64,000 nt of DNA from Hydrogenothermaceae bacterium (GTDB taxonomy: Bacteria > Aquificota > Aquificia > Aquificales > Hydrogenothermaceae). The notes under the pieces are model-generated. The model did not search any database and was not told where the DNA came from. It saw nothing but the letters and a program-made list of their open reading frames with translations. The position numbers were made by a program, and so were the translations under genes. Positions 4,747 through 34,393 of the stretch are shown in pieces. Each line of letters starts with the position of its first letter. Position 1 is the first letter of the stretch. The stretch is from the NCBI GenBank assembly GCA_026418535.1, contig JAOABC010000002.1:1-64000 (forward strand), written 5' to 3'.

Positions 4747-5152
4747 AAAGATAAAAAAAGGTCTGTACTCTATATTCTTAGAGAACTTCTTGCTGAAATT
4801 ACTCTCTTTAACTGTTGCGATTCTGATTTGGTTTGGTGTCTCTTCTACTGTAAAGATGAGGTATCAGTTTTATAGTTATGTTGACGTTATAAATATTCCG
4901 AATGACCTAGAGGTAATCAAGATTAAGCCGGAAAAGGTAAAAGTTATAGTTGAAGGTAGAAGGAAGATATTCAATAAACCAATCTTCGATAAGGTGGTTG
5001 TTTATGTAGATGGTAAGAGGTTAAAGGAAGGGAAGAATGAAGTGAAAGTTAACCTGATGTTAGAAGGTTTCGATAAAGATGATGTGATAGTAGTGGAGCC
5101 TGAAAGTGTTATAATATTTACAAGGAAGTCTAAAGAGAAAGAGGTTTATTAA
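4730..5152 (+). CDS. cdaR: CdaR-like protein with one YbbR domain
   Basis: 140 residues: a basic N terminus, one membrane anchor at ~20-40 (LLKLLSLTVAILIWFGVSS), and an outside-facing YbbR-type beta domain with the typical VKVIVEG turn. Classical CdaR carries three or four YbbR repeats; this version has one. Position directly after cdaA, with overlap, makes it the likely partner that anchors or regulates the cyclase. It overlaps thrS by one base (TAATG). Confidence 0.85.
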   Translation: MKLKLRKIKKGLYSIFLENFLLKLLSLTVAILIWFGVSSTVKMRYQFYSYVDVINIPNDLEVIKIKPEKVKVIVEGRRKIFNKPIFDKVVVYVDGKRLKEGKNEVKVNLMLEGFDKDDVIVVEPESVIIFTRKSKEKEVY

Positions 5153-7083: not shown

Positions 7084-8120
7084 TGATAGATAAATTTCTT
7101 GGTATGTTCTCTAACGATATTGGTATAGACCTTGGAACTGCTAACACATTGATATTCGTCCGAGGTAAGGGGATAGTCCTGTCTGAACCATCAATAGTTG
7201 CCATAGATAAGGCTACAAACAAGGTTCTTGCTGTTGGTAAAGAAGCTAAGGAAATGATAGGTAAAACTCCGGAGCATATACAAGTTATAAGACCACTGAA
7301 GGATGGGGTTATAGCAGACTTTGATACCACTCAGTCTATGCTTAAATACTTCATCCAAAAAGTGCATACTAATTTTCCTTTAATCAGTATACTAAATCCA
7401 AGACCAAGGGTAGTTATAGGTGTCCCCTCCGGAATAACGACAGTGGAGAAAAGAGCCGTAATAGATGCTGCAAGACAGGCAGGTGCAAGGGAGGTTTACC
7501 TTATTGCTGAACCCATGGCTGCTGCTATAGGTGCTGGCTTACCAATAGACACACCAGGCGGAAATATGATAGTTGACATAGGTGGTGGGACATCTGAGAT
7601 AGCTGTTATATCTCTATCCGGACTTGTGATATCTAACTCTATAAGGGTTGCTGGCGATGAAATGAATGAAGCTATTATAAACTATTTAAAGAGAAACAAC
7701 CATATCCTTATAGGAGAACAGACTGCAGAGAGTATAAAGGTAAACCTTGGTTCTGCATATTCTACAGACAGGGATAACAAAACTATTGAGATAAGGGGTA
7801 GGGATATGACAGGCATGCCAAGGAGTATTATGATATCCGGAAAAGAGATAAGGGAAGCCTTGGAGGATGTTATCACCCAGATAGTGAACGCTGTAAAGTC
7901 AACTTTAGAGAAGACACCACCAGAGCTTGCAGCGGATATAGTGGAAAGGGGTATAGTTTTAGCAGGAGGAGGCTCTCTGATACACGGATTAGACAAGAGA
8001 CTAAAAGAAGAGACGGACCTACCTGTAGTTTACTGTGAAGATCCTCTAACAGCTGTAGCAAAAGGTATAGGCAAGACTATCCAAAGTATAGAACTTATAA
8101 AGAAAGTCTCTATGAAGTAA
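7080..8120 (+). CDS. mreB: Rod-shape determining actin homologue MreB
   Basis: Bacterial actin that organises lateral wall synthesis at the inner membrane. The sequence has phosphate-1 IGIDLGTANTLIF near residue 15, the EPMAAAIGAGLP segment, phosphate-2 DIGGGTSEIAV and the adenosine motif VLAGGGSLIHGL. The 346-residue length is standard. Start overlaps the thrS stop (ATGGTTTGATG); two adjacent ATG codons give slight start ambiguity. Followed without a gap by mreC and mreD. Confidence 0.97.
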   Translation: MMIDKFLGMFSNDIGIDLGTANTLIFVRGKGIVLSEPSIVAIDKATNKVLAVGKEAKEMIGKTPEHIQVIRPLKDGVIADFDTTQSMLKYFIQKVHTNFPLISILNPRPRVVIGVPSGITTVEKRAVIDAARQAGAREVYLIAEPMAAAIGAGLPIDTPGGNMIVDIGGGTSEIAVISLSGLVISNSIRVAGDEMNEAIINYLKRNNHILIGEQTAESIKVNLGSAYSTDRDNKTIEIRGRDMTGMPRSIMISGKEIREALEDVITQIVNAVKSTLEKTPPELAADIVERGIVLAGGGSLIHGLDKRLKEETDLPVVYCEDPLTAVAKGIGKTIQSIELIKKVSMK

Positions 8121-8908
8121 TGCAGTCTTCTTTTTCAAAAAGATACAAAATATTGATAGTCTTACTCTTAGTGGGTGTTCTGTCTGTGTCGTTTGTAGTT
8201 GTTCTCAAAAGAGTTTTTCCTCCTTTTTTCTCGTATGTAGAGTTTCTTTTGTCTAATTTTAGACAGAATAATGAGAATCTTCTTGTGTACTTCCGTAGTA
8301 AGGAGGAGCTGCATGCAGAGAACAAAGCTCTTAAGATGGAGGTTCAAAAGCTAAAGCTCCAGATAAATGAGCTTGAGTATCTGAGGCTAGAGAACGACGT
8401 TCTCAGGAGATATCTTAGTTTTAAAACGGATTATGGAATAGAAAGGTTTATTGTTGGCAAGGTTATCGGTAGGTCTCCAGATATGTGGGTTAACTCTTTC
8501 CGAATAGACGTGGGCTCTGGAGATGGAGTGAAAAAGGGGGATTTGGTGGTCTTTGACGGATATCTCGTAGGGCTAGTAGAAATGGTATATCAAAACTTTT
8601 CCTCCGTTTTGGCTGTTAGTGATAAAAACTTTAAGATAACTGTGAGGACAAAGAAAACTGGAGAGTCCTGTCTTTACCAAGGATTTGATGAAAAAACTGG
8701 TTATCTAAAGTATGTTAAACCTGAACAGGACGTTAGGATCGGGGATGTTGTAATAACTGATGCAGTGTCTCCGAATGTTCCTGTTGGTATACCTGTAGGG
8801 GTTATTAAGAGTGTGTCTCAGAAAGAGGGAGAGTTTTTCCGGACTATAGAGGTGTCTTTACTCTACAGACAGAATAGTCTGAACTATGTTATGGTCGTAT
8901 CAAGATGA
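8120..8908 (+). CDS. mreC: Rod-shape determining protein MreC
   Basis: Membrane-anchored elongasome scaffold. One N-terminal helix at ~10-30, a coiled coil at ~55-95 rich in Glu, Lys and Leu heptads, then the periplasmic beta-barrel domain with VIGRSPDMW and DVVITDAVSPNVPVGIPVG near the C terminus. 262 residues, normal length. ATG overlaps the mreB stop by one base; the 3' end overlaps mreD by four. Confidence 0.93.
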   Translation: MQSSFSKRYKILIVLLLVGVLSVSFVVVLKRVFPPFFSYVEFLLSNFRQNNENLLVYFRSKEELHAENKALKMEVQKLKLQINELEYLRLENDVLRRYLSFKTDYGIERFIVGKVIGRSPDMWVNSFRIDVGSGDGVKKGDLVVFDGYLVGLVEMVYQNFSSVLAVSDKNFKITVRTKKTGESCLYQGFDEKTGYLKYVKPEQDVRIGDVVITDAVSPNVPVGIPVGVIKSVSQKEGEFFRTIEVSLLYRQNSLNYVMVVSR

Positions 8909-9387
8909 TTGTCTTAAAGTATTTTCTTTTTGGGCTTATTCTTCTTCTACTACAGTCTTCTTCAGTTTGGAGTTCAATCGGAATAGATATAGTCCCAAAC
9001 TTTATTCTGGTATACCTAGTTACTTTTTCCCTTTACTCTGGATATGGACCGGCTCCTCTGATACTTTTTTATGGACTGTTTGGTTCCATCTTAGATAGCC
9101 TCTCATCTGGAGACAGGATAGTGGATGGTATTCTGTTTCCTGTATTGGCTCTTGTCATAGTTCTACTAAAAAGAAAATTTTTGATATCGAATATATTCGT
9201 AAAGACATTGACCTTTCTGATACTAAACGTACTGTATGTGCTCTTAAAAGGGATATTTCTGCACTACTACACTGGTTATGTAGGTATCTTTGGATTTGAA
9301 TTATACTATATGATGCTTAACCTTACAGCCTTTTACATTTTCTTTGGTTTGAGAGAAACACTGTATGGTAAAGATTTGGAAGTTTAA
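8905..9387 (+). CDS. mreD: Rod-shape determining protein MreD
   Basis: A 160-residue, very hydrophobic protein with about five membrane segments. The first pattern, SSIGIDIVPNFILVYLVTFS, matches MreD proteins, and FGSILDSLSSG fits the conserved loop. Identification rests partly on position between mreC and mrdA. Overlaps mrdA by 23 bases. Works with MreB, MreC, RodA and PBP2 in lateral wall growth. Confidence 0.9.
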   Translation: MIVLKYFLFGLILLLLQSSSVWSSIGIDIVPNFILVYLVTFSLYSGYGPAPLILFYGLFGSILDSLSSGDRIVDGILFPVLALVIVLLKRKFLISNIFVKTLTFLILNVLYVLLKGIFLHYYTGYVGIFGFELYYMMLNLTAFYIFFGLRETLYGKDLEV

Positions 9388-11167
9388 CAGGTTTCACATA
9401 GTATCCATCTTATTTATTTTGGTAGCTGTCGTAATAGTTTCAAGACTCTTCTATCTCCAAGTTATAAAAGGTGAGTACTACAGAGAGTTGTCAGATAGAA
9501 ACTATATGAAAGTGTTTATTACAAACCCACCTAGAGGTAGAATTTACGATAGGAACGGTGTGTTACTTGCTTACGATATCCCAACCTTCCAGCTTATCTG
9601 CTTTCCCTATATCCTGAAGAAGAACCATTCAGTAGAGGAGTTCAAACACAACTTAGAGAAATATCTCAACATAACCCTTACCCAAAAACAGGAAGAGATG
9701 ATAAGTAAGAATTTACACCCTACTGTGGTAGTAAAAAAAGAGTTAACTCAAGACCAGGTTTTCAGATTCTGGAACTACAGCTACCTTTTCAATGGTCTGT
9801 ACATAGAGGTAGTCCCAAAGAGAGTTTATACAGAGTATGCTAACTATCTGCCCCACGTTATAGGATACGTTGGATACCCATCAGAAAAGGATCTAAATAA
9901 GAACCCAACCCTGAACATCAATATGTTGATAGGTAAGGCTGGAGTTGAGAAGATATACGACCATATCTTACGAGGTAAACCAGGTGAGAAAACTGTCCTA
10001 GTAGACGCTATGGGTAGACAGAAGAAAATACTGTGGGAGGAGGAGCCTGAAAAGGGTAACGACATCTACCTTACGATAGATATAAGACTCCAGAAGATAG
10101 CTTATGAATCTTTTAAAGAGTCTGGAAAAGAGTCTGGAGCTGTTGTGATAGTGGACCCAAAAACCTATGAGATATTGACTCTCCTCAGCTACCCAACGTA
10201 CGACCTCCAGAAGTTCTACCAGGGGATGACACTAGAAGAGTGGAAACAGCTAACGACTAACAAATATAAGCCCCTTTTAAACAAAGCTTTCAGTGGACTC
10301 TACCCTCCCGGCTCTATCTACAAGCCATTGGTTAGTTTAGTGGCTCTTGAGAATGGAGTGATAACACCTCAGACTAAGATATTAAGCAAAGGTGAGTTCA
10401 GTATAGGAAAATACGTCTACAAGAACTGGGATAAAAGGGGGTGTGGATATATAGATGTGTCCCATGCTCTTGAGATGTCCTGTGATACTTTCTACTACCA
10501 GCTTGGATTGAGGGTTGGTGCAGAGAGTATCAGTAAGTATACCAGACTCTTCGGTGTTGGTGAGAAGTTAAACCCGGACATAGAGACAAAATCTGGAATA
10601 GTTCCGGACAAAACTTGGAAGAAGAAAGTTCTCAAAACATCTTGGTTTCATGGGGATACGGTAAACCTCAGTATAGGGCAAGGATACCTTGTTATAACTC
10701 CTTTTGAAGCTACAAAGATGGTACTTCCTATTATAAACGGTGGATATGTCCTAAAACCAAACATACTAAAGTCGTACTTTGACAATAAAACCCAGAGATT
10801 GGTACATATACAAAAGGAAATTATAAGGAAGATGGAGTTCAAAAGCTACAACGTCGAAGCTGTAAAGTACGGTATGTACAAGGTTGTTTATGGTTACGCG
10901 GGAACAGCTAAAGTTATGGGGACAGTTCCTATAAAGAACGCAGGAAAAACCGGAACAGCTCAGGTGTACACCTATGCTACTAGGCATAAGAAATACCACA
11001 GATGGGATTTGAGGGACCATGCTTGGTTTGTGAGTTTTCTTCCCTATGATGACCCAAAGTATCTTACAGCTGTGTTTGTGGAGCATGGGGAAAGTGGTGG
11101 AAAAGTTGCAGCGCCTATAGCTGCGTCTATACTAAGGAAAGCATACTACCAAAAAGTTATAGATTGA
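9365..11167 (+). CDS. mrdA: Penicillin-binding protein 2, elongation transpeptidase
   Basis: Cross-links peptidoglycan during elongation. One N-terminal anchor at ~10-27, a pedestal domain including PPRGRIYDRNG, then the transpeptidase domain. Active-site motifs: SIYK at 317-320 (nucleophile Ser317), SCD near 378, KTG at 528-530. 600 residues, as expected for class B PBP2. Start at 9365 lies 23 bases inside mreD, and the end overlaps rodA by four bases, so translation is probably coupled. Confidence 0.97.
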   Translation: MVKIWKFNRFHIVSILFILVAVVIVSRLFYLQVIKGEYYRELSDRNYMKVFITNPPRGRIYDRNGVLLAYDIPTFQLICFPYILKKNHSVEEFKHNLEKYLNITLTQKQEEMISKNLHPTVVVKKELTQDQVFRFWNYSYLFNGLYIEVVPKRVYTEYANYLPHVIGYVGYPSEKDLNKNPTLNINMLIGKAGVEKIYDHILRGKPGEKTVLVDAMGRQKKILWEEEPEKGNDIYLTIDIRLQKIAYESFKESGKESGAVVIVDPKTYEILTLLSYPTYDLQKFYQGMTLEEWKQLTTNKYKPLLNKAFSGLYPPGSIYKPLVSLVALENGVITPQTKILSKGEFSIGKYVYKNWDKRGCGYIDVSHALEMSCDTFYYQLGLRVGAESISKYTRLFGVGEKLNPDIETKSGIVPDKTWKKKVLKTSWFHGDTVNLSIGQGYLVITPFEATKMVLPIINGGYVLKPNILKSYFDNKTQRLVHIQKEIIRKMEFKSYNVEAVKYGMYKVVYGYAGTAKVMGTVPIKNAGKTGTAQVYTYATRHKKYHRWDLRDHAWFVSFLPYDDPKYLTAVFVEHGESGGKVAAPIAASILRKAYYQKVID

Positions 11168-23098: not shown

Positions 23099-23554
23099 AT
23101 GAAAATTAAGGGTTTTACACTTATAGAAGTTCTAGTAGTAACTGCTATAGTTGCTATCTTGATAAAGATTGCTATTCCTCATATAAGAAGTTACTATCAA
23201 ATGTATAAGTATAACAGTTATGTTGGGCAGGTTGAGTATGTTTTAAAATGGTCAAGATTAGAAGCGATGTCAAGAAGTAAAAATATGGGAATTTGTGTAG
23301 AAAACAACGGAGTATCTGTGTACGATATGGGATATAGCAGAAGTGGTTTCTGTAGTGGGACTTTAGTTAGGAGAGTTGATGTAGATAGTGGTGATAACTT
23401 TGTTCAGATCAGTGGAACATCAGGTATGGGGTTTGATCCAAGAGGTCTTGCAATAATGGGAGGAAATATCCAGATAAGAAACGGTATAAGAAATGAATGC
23501 GTGAGGTTTAATATTCAGACTTTAAGAGGGAGTGTAAGGAGGGAGAATTGTTAG
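23099..23554 (+). CDS. GspH/FimU-type minor pilin
   Basis: 151 residues opening with a short leader and prepilin peptidase site: cleavage after Gly in KIKG/FTLIEVLVV, with Glu+5. Helix residues ~5-30, then a GspH-like head with the typical QVEYVLKWSRLEAMSRSKNM segment. Two cysteines near the C terminus. First of a four-gene minor pilin set (H, V, W, X-like), which primes pilus assembly. Overlaps the next gene by seven bases. Confidence 0.88.
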   Translation: MKIKGFTLIEVLVVTAIVAILIKIAIPHIRSYYQMYKYNSYVGQVEYVLKWSRLEAMSRSKNMGICVENNGVSVYDMGYSRSGFCSGTLVRRVDVDSGDNFVQISGTSGMGFDPRGLAIMGGNIQIRNGIRNECVRFNIQTLRGSVRRENC

Positions 23555-23940
23555 GTAATAAAAATGGTTTCTCTTTAGTGGAGGCTTTGATAGCTATCAG
23601 TATGGCTTTTTTTATTGTAATTGGTATAGCCAAAATGTTAACGGTTTTCGGCATTTATTCTAAGGGGAATGTAGAAATGACCTGTCTTGTGAATGCTGCA
23701 TCCTCAGCGATAGAAGCTTGTAGAGGAGGAACTCCAATAAATAACTACACTTGTAACAATTTGAACATTCAACTATCTATTACCACAGAAAACTGTAATC
23801 CTTCTACTAACCAGTGTAATCAAATTCAAAAAATCTGTGATCCTTCTACTATCCCTACTAATCAGTGTAATAAAATTATAGTTACCGCAACCTATGCCGG
23901 AAAAAGCTTTTCTTTGGAAGACAGAGTATGTAATTTTTAA
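23548..23940 (+). CDS. PilV/GspI-type minor pilin
   Basis: 130 residues with prepilin site NG/FSLVEALIAIS and Glu+5. The head is small and cysteine-rich: nine cysteines, many in N/Q-C-N contexts, pointing to a disulfide-stabilised surface domain. TTG start overlapping the previous gene. Assigned as PilV-like by the EALIAI helix and position second in the H-V-W-X order. Confidence 0.8.
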   Translation: MLGNKNGFSLVEALIAISMAFFIVIGIAKMLTVFGIYSKGNVEMTCLVNAASSAIEACRGGTPINNYTCNNLNIQLSITTENCNPSTNQCNQIQKICDPSTIPTNQCNKIIVTATYAGKSFSLEDRVCNF

Positions 23941-23951
23941 GGAGAGTAGGT

Positions 23952-24782
23952 GTGAGAGAGAATAAGGGTTTTACGTTAACTGAACTTTTAGTTGCGGTGA
24001 TAATTTCAATGATAATTCTATTAGCCTTAACATCTCTGTTTATAGTTGGTAATAAGACTTTCAAATCTAACAAAGAGATCTCTGATATAAACGAGGATGT
24101 GAAGAACGCAATAACCACGTTAGACTTTCTATTTTCCAGGTGGGGTGCAGGAGTTCCTTGTCCAGATGAAGGGTGTAATCTTCAGTCTCCTCCTCCAGAT
24201 TGTTCTTCTTATCCACCAAAAGACCCTATGTGTATAACTATTATTGATAGAAACCAGATCATCTTCTACGGAAACTTGTACGGTTTAGGATTTGTAAAAG
24301 ATGTAAATAACAGCAATGCCGGTATAATTAGCTGTAGACTTAGTTCTAGTGTAGGGCAAAACTGCTACTATGTATGGAATGGTGGAAAGTTGAAGGGAGG
24401 TTACAACGGGGAAACTCCAAGATACTTTTCATTTTCAACTTTCCCCGGAAGTCAAGACTGCATAACGTATAAAGATGTAAATTTGACTGTTTCTAGCTCA
24501 CTGATAGAGCCAGGAAATCAGAATCCTCAAACCATTACTCTCAGTCCAGGTGATTACATAACGAGAGTTCCCCATCAAATCAAGATATACGTGAATAATG
24601 GCAAACTATATATGGATAGAACTGATATGGCATCGGTGTGTAAGGATAATGAAAACTCAGTTATGTTAGGGAATGTTTCCAAGTTTTTAGCTCAAAAGGA
24701 GGGTCGTAGTGTTAGGCTGGATATTACATTCATAGACTCTACCGGAAAGACTTTCAGTATAACCAGATACTACGGGAGGTAA
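23952..24782 (+). CDS. PilW/GspJ-type minor pilin
   Basis: 276 residues with prepilin site KG/FTLTELLVAVIISM and a Glu at +5. A PilW-like helix continues into SLFIVGNKTFKSNKEISDI. The head holds several cysteines and a Pro-rich patch near residues 63-82. GTG start 11 bases after the previous stop, with AAGGAGAG nearby. Third gene of the minor pilin operon. Confidence 0.82.
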   Translation: MRENKGFTLTELLVAVIISMIILLALTSLFIVGNKTFKSNKEISDINEDVKNAITTLDFLFSRWGAGVPCPDEGCNLQSPPPDCSSYPPKDPMCITIIDRNQIIFYGNLYGLGFVKDVNNSNAGIISCRLSSSVGQNCYYVWNGGKLKGGYNGETPRYFSFSTFPGSQDCITYKDVNLTVSSSLIEPGNQNPQTITLSPGDYITRVPHQIKIYVNNGKLYMDRTDMASVCKDNENSVMLGNVSKFLAQKEGRSVRLDITFIDSTGKTFSITRYYGR

Positions 24783-24787
24783 AAGGG

Positions 24788-26293
24788 ATGGTTAAAGAGA
24801 GAGGAATAGCCTTAGTTCCTACCTTAATGGTAAGTTTAGTTACACTTTTGTTTGGCTTTTCAGCAATGTATATATCAGAGATGGCTTATAGGTCTATATC
24901 TGCTGAAGCTAGGTGGCAGATATTAGAAAAGGCAGCCACATCTGAAATAAAGAAGTTTGGGTTGGATCTAGTTACTGGTAAAAAGAGTTGTAGTGATAGC
25001 AATGAATATAAACTAAACTCTGTAAACGTAGAAGTACGTTCTATATCTGCTGGAGGAAGTTGTTTTATTTGGTTGTCAACAACCTTAAGAGATTCAAGGG
25101 TAACAAAGGTAGGATTAATACCATTGACCCAAAGTGTTCCAACTGACTATGGAGCTGCCGTATTCAAGAGTCTAACTAATTTTACATTAGGAGGTTCTGG
25201 AGCTTTTGCCAGTTGTGACTCTAGTTGCTCTGTTCCTTCTATCATAACAGGAAAAGGCCCCCAGAATCCTCCATCAGGAACCCGAGTTACAACCTGTCCT
25301 AATAACCCGAAAGGCATAGTAGCACTTGTAGACCCCCCTTATCAGGTAAACCGCAATTTGTCCGATATGGATTTGACCAGTGTGGTTTTTAAAAATTTAC
25401 AAAATAGAAACGATATGTTAAACACTTTTACCCGTGTTTTCAATGTAAATTTCAGTAATGGAAAACCGGAAGGTGTGAATAATCCAGAGTGTAGACCAGA
25501 CTTTAATATAAACAACTGTATTGCTTCCGGAAGTAGATTAACCTGTGAATGTAGTGGGAGTAGTTGCAGAGTAGACCTAACTTGGAATAGTTCTATTGGA
25601 AAGTATACAGGTAGAATTGGTAGTAGCACCGGTGTTTCCTGTGGCTCTATAGACCTTGGACAGAATTCAACTGTTGCTATCAGTGGATTCACCGGGGGAG
25701 GAATAATAGGAGCAAATCAGATAAATTTCTCCGGAAATATAAACAACACTAGCAATCCTCCAACCTTAACCTTGATTGCCAGAAATCAGATAACAGATGG
25801 ATCAAACAATATAAACATAAAAAATGTTAATATGTTTTCTCAAAACTATACTCTAGATAACAATAACTTGCAGATCGAAGGAGGAGTAATATATAGCGGT
25901 GGTGCTGGAAATGGAAATATCAATATAAATCTTAATTCAAATTCCTCTTTAGGAAGTACTAATAATCCAGTCTTGATAGTGTCTGATAACAATATTAATC
26001 TGGGAAGAAATGGGAATGCTGAGATCAATGGTCTAATTTTTGCTACATCTTCCAATAATAACTTTAATTTAGGAAGTGGGAACGGAAATTTTAGTATAAA
26101 TGGGGCAATTTTCTCTAATTCAACTAATAACAATGTTAACGTTTCTGGAAATTTCAGCGTTAATTTCAGCAAAACAATAATAGAGAATTTAGCTAATAAA
26201 TATCAGGAGTTTATAAATCCACCGAAATGTGGTTCTCAGAATACACAGAGTACAAGTGCAAGCCTTATCCAGACTTTAATTACCGTTTATTGA
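24788..26293 (+). CDS. PilX-like pilus protein with asparagine-rich beta-solenoid tail
   Basis: 501 residues. The N terminus has the PilX-type membrane helix (RGIALVPTLMVSLVTLLFGF) without a classical prepilin F/E site. Residues ~85-240 hold cysteine-containing loops. From ~285 to ~465 the protein consists of irregular Asn/Gly/Ser-rich repeats of the NININLNSN, GNGNFSINGAIFSN kind, the pattern expected of a right-handed beta-helix adhesin. Position after PilW suggests a pilus-tip or PilX/PilY1-like adhesin role. Codon use in the repeat is AAT/AAC-rich, in line with the repeat itself. Function inferred from layout only. Confidence 0.7.
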   Translation: MVKERGIALVPTLMVSLVTLLFGFSAMYISEMAYRSISAEARWQILEKAATSEIKKFGLDLVTGKKSCSDSNEYKLNSVNVEVRSISAGGSCFIWLSTTLRDSRVTKVGLIPLTQSVPTDYGAAVFKSLTNFTLGGSGAFASCDSSCSVPSIITGKGPQNPPSGTRVTTCPNNPKGIVALVDPPYQVNRNLSDMDLTSVVFKNLQNRNDMLNTFTRVFNVNFSNGKPEGVNNPECRPDFNINNCIASGSRLTCECSGSSCRVDLTWNSSIGKYTGRIGSSTGVSCGSIDLGQNSTVAISGFTGGGIIGANQINFSGNINNTSNPPTLTLIARNQITDGSNNINIKNVNMFSQNYTLDNNNLQIEGGVIYSGGAGNGNININLNSNSSLGSTNNPVLIVSDNNINLGRNGNAEINGLIFATSSNNNFNLGSGNGNFSINGAIFSNSTNNNVNVSGNFSVNFSKTIIENLANKYQEFINPPKCGSQNTQSTSASLIQTLITVY

Positions 26294-26344
26294 GTTCTTA
26301 TGATCATTACATACAAGTTATGAGTGAAAAAATTGTGAAAAATT

Positions 26345-26373
26345 TTGACTTTTTTTGTAAAAGAACTTATACT
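26345..26373 (+). promoter_or_regulatory. Strong sigma-70 promoter of the major pilin gene
   Basis: TTGACT (26345-26350), a 17-bp spacer, then TATACT (26368-26373). Start site expected near 26380, giving a leader of ~43 bases. This is one of the best promoter matches in the window. No sigma-54 GG-N10-GC element, the usual pilA promoter in proteobacteria, is seen here. Confidence 0.75.
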
Positions 26374-26381
26374 ATATACTA

Positions 26382-26397
26382 ACACTGGCGCCGGTGT
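26382..26397 (+). promoter_or_regulatory. Leader hairpin upstream of the major pilin
   Basis: ACACTGGCGCCGGTGT is a near-perfect dyad at the predicted 5' end of the pilin transcript. It could form a 5' stem that protects the mRNA, or be an operator just downstream of the start site. It stands out because the surroundings are AT-rich. Confidence 0.45.
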
Positions 26398-26422
26398 AAA
26401 ACTTAATGAGGAGGTTTTTGTT

Positions 26423-26809
26423 ATGGTAGTGAAAAGAGGTGATGCAGGTTTTACTTTAATTGAGTTGCTAGTGGTTGTCGCTATTATAGCAATCTTAGCA
26501 GCTATAGCCATCCCACAGTTTGGGAAGTACAGGAAGTCTTCAGCAGCAGCTGCAGTTCAATCTGATGCAAGAAACTGTGTAACAGATGCTATAGCTGAGA
26601 TAACAAGAGCACAAATGTCAGGAGCATCTACTCCAACTGGTGGTAGTTATTCAAATATTTCTCCAAACACAGCATCTTGTAGTTGGACCTACAATGAAAC
26701 CACAACAGCCACTTCTTGTACATGCAATGGAAAAGGTGCAGCTCAAGGTGTAAGTTGTGATGCACGATCTACTAGCACTGGAACACAAGTAACTTGCACT
26801 GGCATTTAG
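26423..26809 (+). CDS. pilA: Major type IV pilin
   Basis: 128 residues from ATG 26423, which follows GAGGAGG by seven bases; an upstream frame from 26345 is rejected because it overlaps the promoter. Leader MVVKRGDAG, then FTLIELLVVVAIIAILAAIAIPQF, the classic pilin helix with Glu+5. The head is short (~90 residues), rich in Ser and Thr (runs such as NETTTATS and ARSTSTGT) and has five cysteines. The Ser/Thr-rich head would offer many O-glycosylation sites. Own promoter and own terminator, so probably highly expressed. Confidence 0.9.
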   Translation: MVVKRGDAGFTLIELLVVVAIIAILAAIAIPQFGKYRKSSAAAAVQSDARNCVTDAIAEITRAQMSGASTPTGGSYSNISPNTASCSWTYNETTTATSCTCNGKGAAQGVSCDARSTSTGTQVTCTGI

Positions 26810-26831
26810 TTTATAATCTCTTGTACTCTAT

Positions 26832-26855
26832 GCCGGCTTTTATGCCGGCTTTTTT
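26832..26855 (+). terminator. Rho-independent terminator after pilA
   Basis: GCCGGC (26832-26837) and GCCGGC (26844-26849) are self-complementary and form a stem around TTTTAT, followed by TTTTTT (26850-26855). It lies 23 bases after the pilin stop and isolates pilA from the next gene. Confidence 0.85.
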
Positions 26856-26869
26856 GTGGGGTTATTAAA

Positions 26870-27229
26870 ATGAAGGGGAGCGGGGCTTTCTCTCTGGTAG
26901 AGTTTTTAATAGTTATATCAATAATAGCTATAATCATATCTCTATCTATAAATGCGTACTATAAATACCAGATATCAAGTGTTAAATCTGCGGTTATATC
27001 AGATTTACGAAACTGTATAGGTGATATATCTATCCAGAGACAGAAAGGTGATGAACTTCAGCTTGCAGAAATAGTGAACAACTGTCCTAAATCAAAATTT
27101 ACCAAAAATATAGTTTTAGAGAGAGATGACCCTATAGTATTAAAGGCTGAAGTGGACAGTAATTATGGAGTGATAGAGTGTGAGTATAATGAGCAAAATG
27201 GAAGTGTCAAGTGTAGCTCTCCGTTTTAA
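26870..27229 (+). CDS. Pilin-like protein, PilA paralogue
   Basis: 119 residues with prepilin site GA/FSLVEFLIVISIIAI and Glu+5. The head SVKSAVISDLRNCIGDI parallels AAVQSDARNCVTDAI of the major pilin just upstream, so the two are related by duplication. Three cysteines follow the helix. It starts 15 bases after the pilA terminator and overlaps the glycosyltransferase gene by 50 bases. Minor or alternative pilin. Confidence 0.82.
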   Translation: MKGSGAFSLVEFLIVISIIAIIISLSINAYYKYQISSVKSAVISDLRNCIGDISIQRQKGDELQLAEIVNNCPKSKFTKNIVLERDDPIVLKAEVDSNYGVIECEYNEQNGSVKCSSPF

Positions 27230-29159
27230 AAAAGTCAAAAGTGATTTACTTTCTGTATTTGTCTTTCTGTTTTTTTTAGCTTTGTATACATCAACTGTGT
27301 ATCCAGAAGTGGGAGGTCGCATAAACTATGGAGATTCTGCAAAATGGCAGTTCATCTTTTTAACTAACTATACACCTCATCCGACAGGATATCCTATTTA
27401 TGTATGGTTATCAAAAGTGTTTAATACTGTGCTATATTTTATCGACCTAACAGCATACAGGATAACTGCTATATCTGTTTTCTTTGGTGCATTAACAGTT
27501 TCACTGTTCTATAAGTTATCTTATAGAATATCAGGGAGTAATATTTTTAGTATACTGCTGTCTTTTGTGCTTGGAACTTCTATTACATTCTGGACCCAGG
27601 CCACAGAAGCTGAAGTATACACGCTGAACAGTTTCTTTATAATTTCTATAGTATACCTGTGCTACATGTTTTTTACTACAAATAAGACCTTTTATCTATA
27701 TACCTCAATGCTATTTGTGGCTCTTTCTGTAGGAAACCATATGACCTCTGTATTGTTTATACTGTTACCTGTCTTATTGATTTTATATAAAAATCCAAGA
27801 ATCTTCTTAGAAAAGAGACTTTTTCTTGTGTTATTTATATCTGCTTTTATTGTGTTAATAGAGTATCTGTACGTTTATAAAAGATATGTTTACACAATTA
27901 ATAGTTTAAGTATAAATAGTATGTATGATGGTAAAAATGTATCGTCTTTTTATGAATATCTGTCTGGTTCTGAATTTAAAATAAGGATGTGGGATTTAGA
28001 TAAGTTCATCTCAAGTATGTATAACTTTCCGCTTTATACTTTCCCTGAAGAGATATTTGCAAACAACTTCTTAAACATATCTAAAGTAGAGAGTGCTCAT
28101 CTATTGCTATTTATCTTTTTTCTAATAGTTAGTATTATACCTTTTTATGCCTACTATACGAACAAGTCTAATAGACAGTTTATATTTAGTTTGACTTTGC
28201 CATTTTTGTTATACTCTGTTTACTCTTTTTCCTACTTAATAGGAGATTCGGTAGTATACTACATTCCCATCTATATGCTGGTCTTTCTGTTCTTAATACT
28301 GACAAAGAGCAAGAAAATTTATGTTTTACTCATTGTTCCCCTATTTATTATGAGTATATATTCTTTTCATGGAAAGTTTCATTTCTTGTCCGAAACAAAT
28401 AACTATATATTGAAGGACACTTTAAATATAATTAGGGATATAAAAGAGAGCTATATCCTTTCTCCTCTCCATAGTATCAGTAGATATAAATATCATCTAC
28501 AGATGTTAGAATCATATCTTTCATTTACAAAGGAATATGGAAATTATAATTTCTTAATCTTATCAAGTTCAGAACTTGAAAACCATAAAAAGCTGTATCT
28601 ATCCCGAAATTTTATAGAAGAAACAAAAGATGACAATCTATACCGCCTATTGGCGTCTGGTGCCCTGAAAGTACACACTCTGTACACTCCTTTGGACCAG
28701 GTTCAGGACTTGTATAGAGATAATCTGATTTTGGTTTTAGGAGGTGTCAGATCTTATGATGTTTTAAATAACAGTCCAGAGTTTGTAGACTTTATTCGCT
28801 TATCTGGCTCAAAGTACATCGATATACTCTGCTATGGTAATGCCTACGTTGCTGTACTGAAAGGTGGCAAACTGCTATACGAAGAATCAAGTAATACATT
28901 TTTAGACAGAGTTTTAGAGATAGAAGGTAAAATAGTAGAAATCAGAGTTCCAGGAGCTAGTTGTGGAGATCCTAAGACAGGAAAAATTGACTCTTACCCG
29001 CCATTTGTGTCTCTGAGTAGAAATTCAGATTTTCTATTAACATCAGGCTTAAATGTATTTGTTCTAGATGAAGATTTTAAAGTCTTAAAATTCCTTAGGT
29101 TTTCAAAAAGTCCTTATGATGATAGAGAAATATTTTATATAGACAAAAGTTTAAACTAA
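27180..29159 (+). CDS. DUF2723-type multi-spanning glycosyltransferase (GT-C fold)
   Basis: 659 residues with about ten membrane helices in the first ~400 and a soluble C-terminal region. The first loop has INYGDSAKWQF (Asp52) followed by TPHPTGYPIY (67-74), and a later loop has WTQATEAEVYTLN; these are the marks of DUF2723/PMT-like GT-C enzymes that take sugars from polyprenyl-phosphate donors on the outer face of the membrane. GTG start inside the pilin-like gene; ATG 27189 is an alternative. It sits directly after the pilins and converges, with a four-base overlap, on dprE2 of the arabinose-donor operon. A pilin glycosyltransferase using polyprenyl-phospho-arabinose is the favoured inference. 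Confidence 0.78.
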   Translation: MSIMSKMEVSSVALRFKKVKSDLLSVFVFLFFLALYTSTVYPEVGGRINYGDSAKWQFIFLTNYTPHPTGYPIYVWLSKVFNTVLYFIDLTAYRITAISVFFGALTVSLFYKLSYRISGSNIFSILLSFVLGTSITFWTQATEAEVYTLNSFFIISIVYLCYMFFTTNKTFYLYTSMLFVALSVGNHMTSVLFILLPVLLILYKNPRIFLEKRLFLVLFISAFIVLIEYLYVYKRYVYTINSLSINSMYDGKNVSSFYEYLSGSEFKIRMWDLDKFISSMYNFPLYTFPEEIFANNFLNISKVESAHLLLFIFFLIVSIIPFYAYYTNKSNRQFIFSLTLPFLLYSVYSFSYLIGDSVVYYIPIYMLVFLFLILTKSKKIYVLLIVPLFIMSIYSFHGKFHFLSETNNYILKDTLNIIRDIKESYILSPLHSISRYKYHLQMLESYLSFTKEYGNYNFLILSSSELENHKKLYLSRNFIEETKDDNLYRLLASGALKVHTLYTPLDQVQDLYRDNLILVLGGVRSYDVLNNSPEFVDFIRLSGSKYIDILCYGNAYVAVLKGGKLLYEESSNTFLDRVLEIEGKIVEIRVPGASCGDPKTGKIDSYPPFVSLSRNSDFLLTSGLNVFVLDEDFKVLKFLRFSKSPYDDREIFYIDKSLN

Positions 29160-29887
29160 ATACTCAGCTTTTTAAATAACCTTTCAGGAATAAGTTTAAT
29201 TATCATCATTATGAATCTCCAAATGCCTCTAACATATAGAACATCTACTTTTTTCTGTTGAGACCTGTATATAGCTTTGGCTACTTCTTCTGGGTCTGCA
29301 GTTAGCAATGGTGGTAATTTTAAATTTTTTGTCATCTTTGTTCTAACGAAACCAGGTTTTACCGTCATTACATGTACACCTTTCTTATGAAGTCTGGCTC
29401 TTAAGCCAGAAAGATAAGCTGTAAAACCTGCTTTAGAAGAACCATAAATGTAGTTTGACATTCTTCCTCTCTCTCCTGCTACAGAACTAATTCCTATTAT
29501 GAACCCTTTTCCTGTTTTCTCGAGTTCGTTAGCAAATATATTTGTAATACTCACAGCTCCAGTATAATTTGTATTGATGGTTTTTAGAGTCTCTTCCCAA
29601 GACTCTTCACACTTCTTTTGGTCTGTCATATAACCTGCACAGTAAACTAGACCTTCAGGTCTTGGGTTTAAACTGCTAAGTATTCTCTTATGACTATTAA
29701 AATCAGTTACATCTAGCTCTACTAATCTTACATCTACACCGTATCTTATGTTTAAATCTCTCCTGAAGTCTTCTAACTCTGTTATGTTTCTTCCAGCAAG
29801 GTATAGATTGTTATTATTTTTTGCGTAAACTTCTGCTAAAGCCATACATATATCGCTCTTTGCCCCCACAATCAGTATGTATTTCAT
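29156..29887 (-). CDS. dprE2: DprE2-like short-chain dehydrogenase (decaprenylphosphoryl-keto-ribose reductase)
   Basis: 243 residues, Rossmann fold: N-terminal VGAKSDICMALAEVYA (a variant glycine loop as in DprE2), GRN, LDVTDF, VYCAGY, catalytic Ser in ISSVAG and YxxxK in YGSSKAG. The C terminus is hydrophobic (WRFIMMIIKLIP), suggesting membrane contact. In mycobacteria DprE2 reduces the 2-keto intermediate to polyprenylphosphoryl-D-arabinose using NADH. Overlaps dprE1 by four bases and follows ubiA, so the pathway assignment is strong. Confidence 0.85.
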   Translation of the reverse strand: MKYILIVGAKSDICMALAEVYAKNNNNLYLAGRNITELEDFRRDLNIRYGVDVRLVELDVTDFNSHKRILSSLNPRPEGLVYCAGYMTDQKKCEESWEETLKTINTNYTGAVSITNIFANELEKTGKGFIIGISSVAGERGRMSNYIYGSSKAGFTAYLSGLRARLHKKGVHVMTVKPGFVRTKMTKNLKLPPLLTADPEEVAKAIYRSQQKKVDVLYVRGIWRFIMMIIKLIPERLFKKLSI

Positions 29888-31170
29888 AAGCCTAACCTCC
29901 TGCTTTGTATAGATGAGAATTTTTTCATAGCCCCCAACTCTTTTCTCATATTTCTGAACTTGTCTAGATATATGTATCCAGTTTCTAGCATCTCTCTGGA
30001 CATAAGAGTATCTTTAGCTAGGTATATTCTGCCACCATACTTTAAAACAATTTTATCAAGTTTAGACAGTGTATCAAGTAAACCTGTTTGTACCTTAAAA
30101 TCTAAAGCCAAACTGTATCCTTCTAGTGGAAAAGAGAGAAAGTTATTGTTCTCCCTTCCATATAACTTTAGTACAGATAGAAATGGATATACTCTATCTT
30201 TTTTTATAGTTTTTAAAACTTCATCTATAGCATCAAAACTATACTTTTTAGGGACTATAAACTGATACTGTATAAAACCTTTTTTTCCATACAGTCTGTT
30301 CCAACCTTCTATTCTGTCCAATGGATAGAAAAAACTGTCTATATCTACTATCCGATCAGAGTCTTCAGCTTTAAGATAGTATATACTGTTAAATGCTCTC
30401 ATTATAGGATTGTTTAAGATAAAAGAAGGCATATCTATACGTATATTAAATATACTTTTAGTTGGGTAACTAAGGTCTCCATCTTCAGAAAACTCCCCTA
30501 TCATAACTAATCCCCTAACTGATCTACTCTCCAAGTTTAAAGCATCTATCCAAGCTACAGAGTAGGTTATTTTTCTGTTTTTCTCAAAGGCTTGAAAAAT
30601 TTCTTCCAAGGTTTTTGTCCTAATAGTTCGCTGAATAATATTCTTTGATCTTATCTTTTTTAGTCTTATTTTTGCCTGTAGTATGACACCTAACAGTCCC
30701 ATTCCTCCGCAAATTCCTTTGAATAGTTCATCTCCTTTTTTTACTTTCTGTACTGTTCCATCAGGCAACATAATCTCTATCTCTTCAACGAACTCACTAA
30801 TACAACCGTCTATATGATGGTTTTTCCCATGAACATCGCTAGAGATAGCACCTCCTACTGTTATATACTTTGTTCCTGGTGTAACAGGTAAAAACCATCC
30901 CCTTGGAACAAATACTTCTATTATATCTTTGAGTAATACTCCGGATTTACAGGATAGTATTCCTTCTTTTTCATTAAACTCAATAAGGAATCTGTTTTTT
31001 ATACTAGATACAGCAACATCACTTAATACACAGTCACCATAACTCCTCAGATTGCCAATAGGAATTAAATTATCATGTTTTAAAATTATCTCTCTGAGAG
31101 TTTTTTCTGAAGTATAGTAAAGAACATCACTATCTATTTTTTTGTATCTTCCCCATCCAGATATTACCAT
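29884..31170 (-). CDS. dprE1: DprE1-like FAD oxidase (polyprenylphosphoryl-ribose 2'-oxidase)
   Basis: 428 residues. FAD-binding features match DprE1: GNLRSYGD at 39-46, PGTKYITVGGAISSDVHGKN at 98-117 and the C-terminal GGRIYLAKD. The enzyme oxidises polyprenylphosphoryl-ribose to the 2-keto form, the first half of epimerisation to D-arabinose. The stretch aligned with the mycobacterial GWNICVDF reads GYSLALDF, so the cysteine that benzothiazinones attack (Cys387 in M. tuberculosis) is Ala355 here. Stop-to-start spacing with ubiA is zero. Confidence 0.9.
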   Translation of the reverse strand: MVISGWGRYKKIDSDVLYYTSEKTLREIILKHDNLIPIGNLRSYGDCVLSDVAVSSIKNRFLIEFNEKEGILSCKSGVLLKDIIEVFVPRGWFLPVTPGTKYITVGGAISSDVHGKNHHIDGCISEFVEEIEIMLPDGTVQKVKKGDELFKGICGGMGLLGVILQAKIRLKKIRSKNIIQRTIRTKTLEEIFQAFEKNRKITYSVAWIDALNLESRSVRGLVMIGEFSEDGDLSYPTKSIFNIRIDMPSFILNNPIMRAFNSIYYLKAEDSDRIVDIDSFFYPLDRIEGWNRLYGKKGFIQYQFIVPKKYSFDAIDEVLKTIKKDRVYPFLSVLKLYGRENNNFLSFPLEGYSLALDFKVQTGLLDTLSKLDKIVLKYGGRIYLAKDTLMSREMLETGYIYLDKFRNMRKELGAMKKFSSIQSRRLGL

Positions 31171-32055
31171 TCAAAAACCACCTCTAACTATAATGAAAAA
31201 GGATATTAACCATAAGACTATAACTATCTGAAGAAATCTATCGTTTATAACGATCTCTGTAGGATTGCCGCTCTTGTTTTCAACGAAGGTTATCTGCATA
31301 TATCTCAGTATACCTAGTATAACAAATATAGATGTAAGATATAACTTATCTGTGTTATACCTTTTCACAACACTGTCTGAAACTGTATACATTATGTAAG
31401 AAACCACTATAACGGAAGCCATAAATACCATCGTGGCATTTAAAAACTCTAGATTATAACGGTCTATATTTCTTCTGACTTTGTTTGAGTTTAGATACAA
31501 AAGAAAGTCTTCTCTTCTTTTAGATGCTGCTAAAAACACCGCTAATAAAAATGTTATAACTACTATCCAGTTTGACAGTGATATACTAGCAGTTATGCTT
31601 CCTGCTAAAAGCCTCAAATCGAATCCTACAGCTATGACTATTAAGTCTATTATCGATATATGTTTTAACTTTGTAGAGTAAAGTATGTTTATCAACACGT
31701 ATATGGTTAGTACTAGAAAAAGTCTATAGTCGAGTATAAAGGAAGTTATTAGGGATGTGAGTAAAAGGAATACCATCAGAACTACACTATGTTTAACTTT
31801 TATTCTTCCGGAAGCTAATGGCCTATACCTTTTAACTGGATGTTTTCTATCCTCCTCAACATCTTTTATATCGTTGAATATGTATACACTACTTGCTGCT
31901 AAAGAGAATATTAAAAATGCCACTACATTTTTTAAGAATAGTTCAGGATGAAAGTGGAAGGAAAAAAACAGAGGTGTAAATACGAAAAGATTTTTTATCC
32001 ACTGTTTAACTCTTATAAGTTCCAAATAGTCTTTAAAAGTTATACCTTTTAACAA
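31171..32055 (-). CDS. ubiA: UbiA-family polyprenyl-phosphate phosphoribosyltransferase (DPPR synthase-like)
   Basis: Integral membrane prenyltransferase with ~8 helices. RVKQWIKNLFVFTPLFF and the Asp-rich NDIKDVEEDRKHPVKRYRPL are the signature of Rv3806c-type enzymes, which transfer 5-phosphoribose from PRPP to polyprenyl phosphate; the ubiquinone UbiA family differs at KR-x-RP. The open frame extends to 32109 but overlaps the kinase-like gene by 77 bases. TTG 32055, eight bases after GAGAGGT, is the more likely start and leaves a 23-base overlap (294 residues). First step of the arabinose-donor route. The phosphatase that should follow (Rv3807c-like) is not in the window. Confidence 0.88.
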   Translation of the reverse strand: MLKGITFKDYLELIRVKQWIKNLFVFTPLFFSFHFHPELFLKNVVAFLIFSLAASSVYIFNDIKDVEEDRKHPVKRYRPLASGRIKVKHSVVLMVFLLLTSLITSFILDYRLFLVLTIYVLINILYSTKLKHISIIDLIVIAVGFDLRLLAGSITASISLSNWIVVITFLLAVFLAASKRREDFLLYLNSNKVRRNIDRYNLEFLNATMVFMASVIVVSYIMYTVSDSVVKRYNTDKLYLTSIFVILGILRYMQITFVENKSGNPTEIVINDRFLQIVIVLWLISFFIIVRGGF

Positions 32056-32557
32056 ACTGCATGACCTGAGAGAGGTTTTTTGGTCGGAGTGTTGGTTTTG
32101 CTCTTTCAAAATCTATAAGGTGAAGTTTTAATTCTTTATCTACCAATACATTTTTGTATGGTCTATGCATCTCCTCTTTGTTTATCTTTAATCTATCTAG
32201 TATTTTTGCTTGCTGGATAAGCTGTTTTAAAAGGTGTTCTTTGTTTTCATGGTTTAAAATATCTATCAGATGTTTACCATCTATGTATTCATAGGCTATG
32301 AAGTCACCCCCTATCATGTACAGTTTTCCGCCTACACCTTCTCTATTTACTATCTGGAGTATCTTTCCTTCTTTAAGGATAGAATGTCTGTGTATATCTT
32401 TAAGTGGCACTTTGAATGATAAAGTTTTTCCGTCTAGATCACCTCTGTACACCACAGACCTCCATCCACCACCCATCTTTTCTAAGTTTTTGACCTTTTC
32501 TTTTATCTCTACAAACTTCACCATCCGGATTAAGCTTTTCTCCCTATATGGCTCCAA
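32033..32557 (-). CDS. Small protein-kinase-like protein
   Basis: About 174 residues. A compact kinase fold can be read: glycine-containing start (MGGGWRSVVYRG), candidate ATP Lys in LSFKVPL, hinge AYEYIDGKHL, catalytic-loop variant HRPYKNVLVD and a DFE in place of DFG (LHLIDFERAK). This resembles the small archaeal/bacterial predicted Ser/Thr kinases (COG2112-like). The usual HxD catalytic Asp is not obvious. Start uncertain: TTG 32557 overlaps the previous gene by 28 bases; ATG 32524 is an alternative. It sits between a membrane protein and ubiA, so an envelope sugar or lipid kinase is possible. Confidence 0.65.
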   Translation of the reverse strand: MEPYREKSLIRMVKFVEIKEKVKNLEKMGGGWRSVVYRGDLDGKTLSFKVPLKDIHRHSILKEGKILQIVNREGVGGKLYMIGGDFIAYEYIDGKHLIDILNHENKEHLLKQLIQQAKILDRLKINKEEMHRPYKNVLVDKELKLHLIDFERAKPTLRPKNLSQVMQFVKRYNF

Positions 32558-32979
32558 ATCTCTTGGTCTATATTGTGGAGTACATACTCCGGAGCTTCTA
32601 CTCTTACAACATACTTTCCATCTATCTGGAGGATATCCCCCTTCTCGTCTTTTTCAAATTCAACTTTTATAACCTTGTACTTTCCTCTGTAGACTTCAAA
32701 TCCATCCTCTTTCTCAACAACTCTGTCAAACTTTAACATGTTAGCCTGCTTGTAGATTAGGTCTTTTATCATCTCTTTAACAGGGAAGGATATCACTCTC
32801 TGTCCTCTCTCCTCTCTCTGTTGCCTGTCATGAAACCAAAGAAGTACAGAGAAGGTTATTACAGTTATATCTATAAGAAAGAAGGTAAACATCCAGAGTT
32901 TGTAAGAAATGATGTAGAAGTAGATAGACAAAATAGACAGTAGGATTATTATCAGAGATATGGTTACATTTTTTAACAT
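32530..32979 (-). CDS. Membrane protein of unknown function
   Basis: 149 residues. Two membrane segments at ~5-25 and ~29-49, then a charged cytoplasmic domain with VKEMIKDLIYKQANML and a beta-rich end (KYKVIKVEFEKDEKGDIL, KYVVRVEAPEYV). No recognised family. Located between lolA and the kinase-like gene with overlap on one side and an eight-base gap on the other, so part of the same operon. Confidence 0.6.
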   Translation of the reverse strand: MLKNVTISLIIILLSILSIYFYIISYKLWMFTFFLIDITVITFSVLLWFHDRQQREERGQRVISFPVKEMIKDLIYKQANMLKFDRVVEKEDGFEVYRGKYKVIKVEFEKDEKGDILQIDGKYVVRVEAPEYVLHNIDQEIWSHIGRKA

Positions 32980-32987
32980 CCTTACTC

Positions 32988-33584
32988 CTAATAGTTAATG
33001 ATCTTTGTCCCTGTAGGGATCTCGAAATTTATATTCTCCTTTTTTGTTAGGAATCTGAAAGTTTTAAACATGATCTCAACTTTGTTGTTTTCTATATCGA
33101 TCATCGTTATATTCTGGATAGTGTCATTTTTTACGGTTATCTCTATATTTTTCATATCGCTACTACTCTTTGGTTTTAGCATCAATTTACTTCCTTCAAC
33201 CTGTATGTCAAAAACAGCCCTTATTGGTTTTGTGTTCAAGAAGATAGCCATAACATCCTCTATAAAGATTTCTGTATCTCTCTTTGATATTATAGCTTGT
33301 TTCTCTGATGGAGTATATAAGATTACTCTCTCTTTTGTGATATATAGAGTCTGTTCAAATGGTTTAGTATAGTTTATCTTGCTGTTGAAAGGTTTGTATG
33401 CTATGAGGTTTCCGGAGTATACCTCTGGAGTCTTTGAATTTCCTTGGAATGTTTTTTGGGTAAACTCTCCCTCTATCCCGTGAGAGCTAGATATTTTTCC
33501 CTCTAACCACTGAACCAGGTTTTCCTGAGAGTATGAGTATGAGAAAGAAAAGAGTAGTAAGATCGTTATTAAAATAGTCTTCAT
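32988..33584 (-). CDS. lolA: Outer-membrane lipoprotein carrier protein
   Basis: Periplasmic chaperone that ferries lipoproteins from LolCDE to the outer membrane. Signal peptide MKTILITILLLFSFSYSYS (start at ATG 33584, four codons inside the longest frame), then a LolA fold: IEGEFTQKTFQ, VYSGNLIAYKPFNSKINY, LYITKERVILYTPSEKQA. About 198 residues, normal length. Shows an outer membrane with lipoproteins. Just touches the trx-TPR gene (stop TGA at 33584-33586). Confidence 0.9.
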   Translation of the reverse strand: MKTILITILLLFSFSYSYSQENLVQWLEGKISSSHGIEGEFTQKTFQGNSKTPEVYSGNLIAYKPFNSKINYTKPFEQTLYITKERVILYTPSEKQAIISKRDTEIFIEDVMAIFLNTKPIRAVFDIQVEGSKLMLKPKSSSDMKNIEITVKNDTIQNITMIDIENNKVEIMFKTFRFLTKKENINFEIPTGTKIINY

Positions 33585-34393
33585 CAGTATAACCACATAG
33601 CAAGTTTTTTCCTGTAATCCTTTGTTAGAGGATGATCTTCCCCAAGGAGGCTAAATATAGCCACCATAGACTTTCTTGCTCCATCATCTTTGAAGTTTCT
33701 ATCTTTCTTTACTATCTCCAAGAAAAGTTTTAAAGCCTCTTCGTACTTTTCTTCTATAGCATAGCAGGAAGCCTGGGAATACAACATCTCTAAGTCATTT
33801 TGGAAGTTCTCCTTAACACACTCTTTTTTGAACTCTACCATAGCTTTTAAGGCTTGGGCTTTTATGAAATACTCTTTCTCGTACTCTTTTATAGAGTTCA
33901 GCAAGTCTAAAGCTTCATCGATCTTGTTTAGTTTAATCATAACTTTTGATGCTTCTAAGTATAGTTTTTTGTTTTGAGGATACTCTGAAAGAGCTCTCTT
34001 ATAGAGTTCATAGGCAGAGTATAAGTCCCCGGAGTTCAATAAGCTGTTAGCCTGGTATATGTACTCATCCGCTTTTGATCTGATGTATTTACTTATAATC
34101 TGTCTTACTTGACTTTCTGGAAGAGCTCCTACAAACTTGTCTACTACTTTTCCATCTTTTACTATCCTAACATCCGGAATGCCATGAACTTCAAATTCTT
34201 GAGCTATATCTGGGTTTTTATCAGTATTTACCTTCGCTAAGATAAATCCATACTCGTTTGCAAGTTTTTCCAGTATAGGCTTCAAAGCTCTACAAGGACC
34301 ACACCAAGCAGCCCAAAAATCTATAACAACCACATTATCATAAGACTTCTCCATTACTTCCGAGAAATTCTCCGAGTTTACGTCAACTATCAT
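33584..34393 (-). CDS. Thioredoxin-TPR protein, CnoX/YbbN-like
   Basis: 269 residues. Thioredoxin domain at 1-105 with an intact WCGPC active site (Cys31, Cys34), then tetratricopeptide-like helices (YSAYELYKRALSEYPQNKKL and others). E. coli CnoX (YbbN) has the same layout but an SXXC site; here both cysteines are present, so redox activity is expected. Strong GGAGG before ATG and an upstream promoter; first gene of the leftward operon leading to dprE2. Confidence 0.88.
   Translation of the reverse strand: MIVDVNSENFSEVMEKSYDNVVVIDFWAAWCGPCRALKPILEKLANEYGFILAKVNTDKNPDIAQEFEVHGIPDVRIVKDGKVVDKFVGALPESQVRQIISKYIRSKADEYIYQANSLLNSGDLYSAYELYKRALSEYPQNKKLYLEASKVMIKLNKIDEALDLLNSIKEYEKEYFIKAQALKAMVEFKKECVKENFQNDLEMLYSQASCYAIEEKYEEALKLFLEIVKKDRNFKDDGARKSMVAIFSLLGEDHPLTKDYRKKLAMWLY

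Follow-up and report, generated by a model that had tools for sequence, protein, structure and literature searches.

The locus described here raises the question of which sugar a bacterium attaches to its pili. In a Hydrogenothermaceae bacterium (Aquificota), a cluster of pilin genes (23099-27229) leads into a gene for a GT-C glycosyltransferase, and an operon of ubiA, dprE1 and dprE2 (32109-29156) converges on that gene. All of these lie within the window, by which we mean the whole 64,000-nucleotide stretch of DNA that was analysed, on contig C22 of a 1.47 Mb genome (G000). The original prediction was that the pilins are decorated with D-arabinofuranose by an independent system using a DUF2723 transferase. 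Our best explanation, to which we assign a probability of roughly 0.6, is a pilin-glycosylation locus whose lipid donor has been switched to polyprenyl-P-D-arabinofuranose (DPA), which would work in the manner of TfpW, using a GT-C of another family.

Table 1. Pilin, transferase and donor genes of the window
Feature	Position	Strand	Evidence
Four minor-pilin-like ORFs (151, 130, 276, 501 aa)	23099..26293	+	ORF calls; homologues in G101 locus L053
Major-pilin candidate, Ser/Thr-rich head	26345..26809	+	N_methyl PF07963, E 1e-9; 65% identity with G101 pilin
Second prepilin	26870..27229	+	N_methyl PF07963
DUF2723/TMEM260-like GT-C, GD[S/T]AK clade; predicted pilin arabinofuranosyltransferase	27180..29159	+	PF11028, E 5e-17, 62.7 bits (gathering cut-off 24.2); match to TMEM260 structure 9rql; clade
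DprE2-like SDR	29156..29887	-	NF053786 198 bits (below cut-off of 250); NF005489 above cut-off
DprE1-like FAD oxidoreductase	29884..31170	-	NF053785 340 bits (below cut-off of 500); 203 bits to mycobacterial DprE1 structures in PDB
UbiA-type (decaprenyl-)polyprenyl-phosphate phosphoribosyltransferase	31171..32109	-	NF008977 249 bits (above curated cut-off of 234); PDB 8j8j E 2e-41

The open reading frames are all intact and lie where the original prediction placed them, and the identities that it gave to the GT-C and to the three converging genes hold, those of DprE1 and DprE2 as probable ones. The major-pilin candidate probably has its true start near 26420, and the 3' end of the second prepilin gene overlaps the start of the GT-C reading frame. 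The head of the major pilin had been called very Ser/Thr-rich; the excess is real and modest, Ser and Thr making up 33% of its residues (30/91) against 13-28% in 20 other pilins of this and related loci. As evidence for the acceptor it is only suggestive, because the 65%-identical pilin of G101, another Aquificota genome, has 26% and yet is accompanied by a GT2-type cassette.

Pfam and NCBIfam scans of the GT-C returned PF11028, the TMEM260-like family formerly called DUF2723, as the sole family. Its best score (106 bits) is to a Tateyamaria protein, the single plasmid match to the GT-C, and in comparison with four Aquificota GT-Cs its score never exceeds 65 bits. PF11028 was found in 5 of 397 Roseobacteraceae genomes, in four of these as the GD[S/T]AK type. 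A tree built from 53 N-terminal regions places the six GD[S/T]AK rows, namely the window GT-C and five Roseobacteraceae proteins, on one side of a branch with support of 98/97, the window protein being a long branch (a point against our reading) at which the program warned of long branches meeting, with all 53 rows kept. Thirteen other Aquificota GT-Cs group separately from these rows in the same tree (100/100), and the sequence relationships indicate that the window enzyme is not an orthologue of them. An AlphaFold2 model of the GT-C from single-sequence input had a pLDDT of 38 and was set aside.

The donor genes encode a complete UbiA-DprE1-DprE2 set. The UbiA protein conserves the motif NDxxDxxxDRxHPxKRxRP and probably has its true start within the reading frame, which overlaps the upstream kinase-like gene. 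Both the DprE1-like protein and the adjoining DprE2-like SDR are full length, although each scores below its dedicated cut-off, which UbiA passes. Alignment of the former shows conservation of the HGKNHH stretch and of the AKD lysine, which we take to correspond to H132 and K418 in Mycobacterium tuberculosis numbering; these conserved residues are usually held to be essential.

The original prediction had named co-occurrence of the DUF2723 GT-C with dpr genes across Aquificota as a check, and here it fared badly. Among 136 Aquificota genomes, a full DUF2723 match (over cut-off) was found in 14, three more having weak matches below cut-off, and a clear DprE1 (>200 bits) in seven, these being G000, five genomes of one genus and G006; G000 is the only one of the 14 with a clear DprE1, and this lack of co-occurrence counts against arabinosylation by that check. 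In G006, UbiA and DprE1 lie by a 558-amino-acid membrane protein without a Pfam match and no DprE2 is adjacent (L067:9318-13023); this locus was rejected as pilus-linked because the genes around it are for type II secretion.

The link between GT-C and pilins, on the other hand, extends to the relatives. A DUF2723 GT-C lies beside pilin genes in all 13 other Aquificota genomes, counting G063, where a contig ends in a pilin-like fragment, and G101, where 464 bases separate the two. When eight proteins from the locus of G078, a genome of the same genus as G000, were used as tblastn queries against these 13 loci and the window, a polyprenyl-P-sugar-synthase-like GT2 was found in 11 of the 13 and homologues of a GT4 and a Polysacc_synt-type flippase in most of them, and none of the eight queries matched in the window. 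A membrane protein of about 200 amino acids with no Pfam match (L054:7922-8518; counterparts in L049-L061) follows the GT-C in 13/13 relatives and has no counterpart in the window.

Comparison with G078 shows that the content of the locus has been exchanged between conserved flanks. The two genomes share thiG (92%) and kdsB (68%) on one side and, on the other, a kinase-like gene (77%), a 149-amino-acid protein (63%), LolA (53%), a Trx-TPR protein (86%) and a Nudix protein (74%). Since G078 lacks a clear DprE1 and nevertheless has the kinase-like, 149-amino-acid, LolA and Trx-TPR genes (window 32033-34393), these belong to the flank and lie outside the arabinose module. Between these flanks G078 carries a different block of pilin genes and a different DUF2723 GT-C, together with a polyprenyl-P-sugar/GT4/flippase cassette, so that its donor cassette and the ubiA-dprE1-dprE2 genes of G000 hold the same chromosomal place. 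That other genera also have the cassette points to arabinose as the more recent state in this genus. In G101 (L053), pilins resembling those in the window (65% and 51%) occur with a GT2-type glycan cassette, from which it follows that pilin and donor modules also recombine.

Outside the Aquificota, the GD[S/T]AK clade again adjoins DPA genes. The Tateyamaria GT-C lies 2.3 kb from UbiA-GtrA-DprE1-DprE2, and tblastn located all four of ubiA, gtrA, dprE1 and dprE2 beside the GD[S/T]AK GT-C in three loci of the clade altogether (L160, L189 and L190); in L187, where the GT-C stands at a contig end, the same search found no DPA genes beside it. DPA genes were found beside none of 48 DUF2723 loci outside the clade (13 from Aquificota, L186 and 34 from Desulfobacterota), several of these stretches ending at contig ends. 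Seven Pseudomonadota matches to the clade profile were rejected as members, as those that could be aligned are other DUF2723 types, and no DPA genes lie near any of them. Conversely, HMM and phmmer searches found no DUF2723 protein within 10 kb of DprE1 at 80 DprE1 loci of other groups, and PF11028 scored above cut-off in none of 397 genomes of Campylobacterota, the group with most of the nearest DprE1 relatives. Fisher's test for the association, on counts entered by hand (5/6 versus 0/46), gives p = 2e-6, a value that treats orthologous loci as separate and thus makes them look more independent than they are; two lineages underlie the association. In the DprE1 tree, the window protein belongs to a 13-row clade (100/99) of mostly Campylobacterota sequences, apart from the Roseobacteraceae rows, and the L190 DprE1 is separate from that of Tateyamaria. 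The GT-C clade has therefore been paired with different DPA lineages.

A donor switch at the locus is thus suggested by the complete donor set, the pilin-linked counterparts, the flanks shared with G078 and the DPA-linked clade. We predict that UbiA would transfer ribose-5-phosphate from PRPP to polyprenyl phosphate, that a phosphatase would take off the 5'-phosphate, and that DprE1 and DprE2 would invert C2' to give DPA, which a flippase would move to the periplasm; there the pilin-adjacent GT-C would transfer D-arabinofuranose to Ser/Thr residues of the pilin head, an acceptor that we infer from gene position. We consider it an even bet that GD[S/T]AK DUF2723 GT-Cs are a distinct arabinofuranosyltransferase family and that Aquificota pilus loci swap pilin and donor genes together as whole blocks, leaving related species with different pilus sugars. 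Several observations count against the donor switch. The GT-C and the trio are convergent and so do not form one operon. No GtrA-type flippase (PF04138) was found in the G000 genome by a search that was positive in seven other genomes, and a single HAD phosphatase query, run without a positive control, had no match there as a 5'-phosphatase.

Other glycosyltransferases in the genome also weigh against the donor switch and give the trio another possible outlet. Its DPA may feed a separate envelope polymer through a PMT_2 GT-C, the pilin GT-C drawing on a lipid made by a GT2 elsewhere. The genome has three PMT_2 GT-Cs, one of them at 62534-63958, and a GT2 adjoins an LPG_synthase_TM protein on contig C11; in other bacteria, moreover, the trio is often accompanied by PMT_2 or unassigned GT-Cs. 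We regard this arrangement as unlikely, given that the trio sits exactly at the site of the G078 donor cassette and that members of the GT-C clade adjoin DPA genes in a second lineage as well. It is improbable that the GT-C uses a polyprenyl-P-pentofuranose to modify a polysaccharide or another surface protein: the Roseobacteraceae loci do look like polysaccharide loci rather than pilus loci (a further point against the donor switch), that of Tateyamaria having genes for glucan biosynthesis, a sulfotransferase and a GT61 and no pilins, but the window GT-C overlaps a pilin gene and its counterpart is pilin-adjacent in 13/13 relatives. That the sugar is ribofuranose or another pentofuranose has very little probability with both DprE1 and DprE2 intact in the window, even though one such GT-C is reported to take both Ribf and Xylf (PMC11127046) and a Roseobacteraceae locus, L188 (G311, 4783-11132), which is perhaps a ribofuranose variant, combines UbiA, GtrA and a GD[S/T]AK GT-C but gave, by tblastn, no match to DprE1 and one to no more than the last 97 residues of DprE2.

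The predicted system has two lines of precedent. TfpW arabinosylates group IV type IV pili of Pseudomonas aeruginosa Pa5196/P. paraeruginosa (Kus 2008 and Harvey 2011, as cited in PMC11841053 and PMC12369383). As those citing papers describe it, the TfpW system is similar in having a pilin-adjacent GT-C, UbiA/DprE-type donor genes and pilin cassettes swapped by horizontal transfer; it probably differs in the family of its GT-C, which is DUF2723/TMEM260-like in the window, and it has its donor genes on a separate island in PA7 rather than at the pilin locus. The three-component pentofuranose systems, whose GT-C belongs to GT136, likewise combine a UbiA-type phosphoribosyltransferase, DprE1/E2 for Araf and a periplasmic GT-C, in the pathway order proposed here (PMC11127046). 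Unlike these, the window has a predicted pilin acceptor and a GT-C that matches PF11028, and the searches for a flippase and a phosphatase found neither. The GT-C resembles TMEM260-like protein O-mannosyltransferases in its N-terminal domain, its GD and HPxGYP motifs and its predicted protein acceptor, but has GDSAK where they have GDSGE and a predicted pentofuranose lipid as donor instead of mannose. The loci of other Aquificota share the DUF2723 GT-C beside pilins and, in the same-genus genome, the chromosomal place, and differ in GT-C clade and in having a GT2 cassette instead of the trio.

The open-access literature searched yielded no account of pilin arabinosylation by a DUF2723 GT-C or of an in-place donor exchange, and no paper there uses the name DUF2723. 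If our reading is correct, the locus would provide a second GT-C family for pilin arabinosylation, a donor switch at one site where genomes of the same genus can be compared, and, for one clade of TMEM260-like enzymes, a donor that can be tested. TfpO and TfpW reportedly protect P. aeruginosa from pilus phages by glycosylating its pilins (PMC11841053), a possible reason for such exchange.

The PMT_2 GT-C within the window lies near an S41 protease and TsaD. In five genomes of genus g14 (L062-L066), a DprE1-like protein on a very long branch has HGKSS in place of HGKNHH and no adjacent UbiA. The window DprE1 has alanine at the position of Cys387, the residue that benzothiazinones bind covalently in M. 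tuberculosis.
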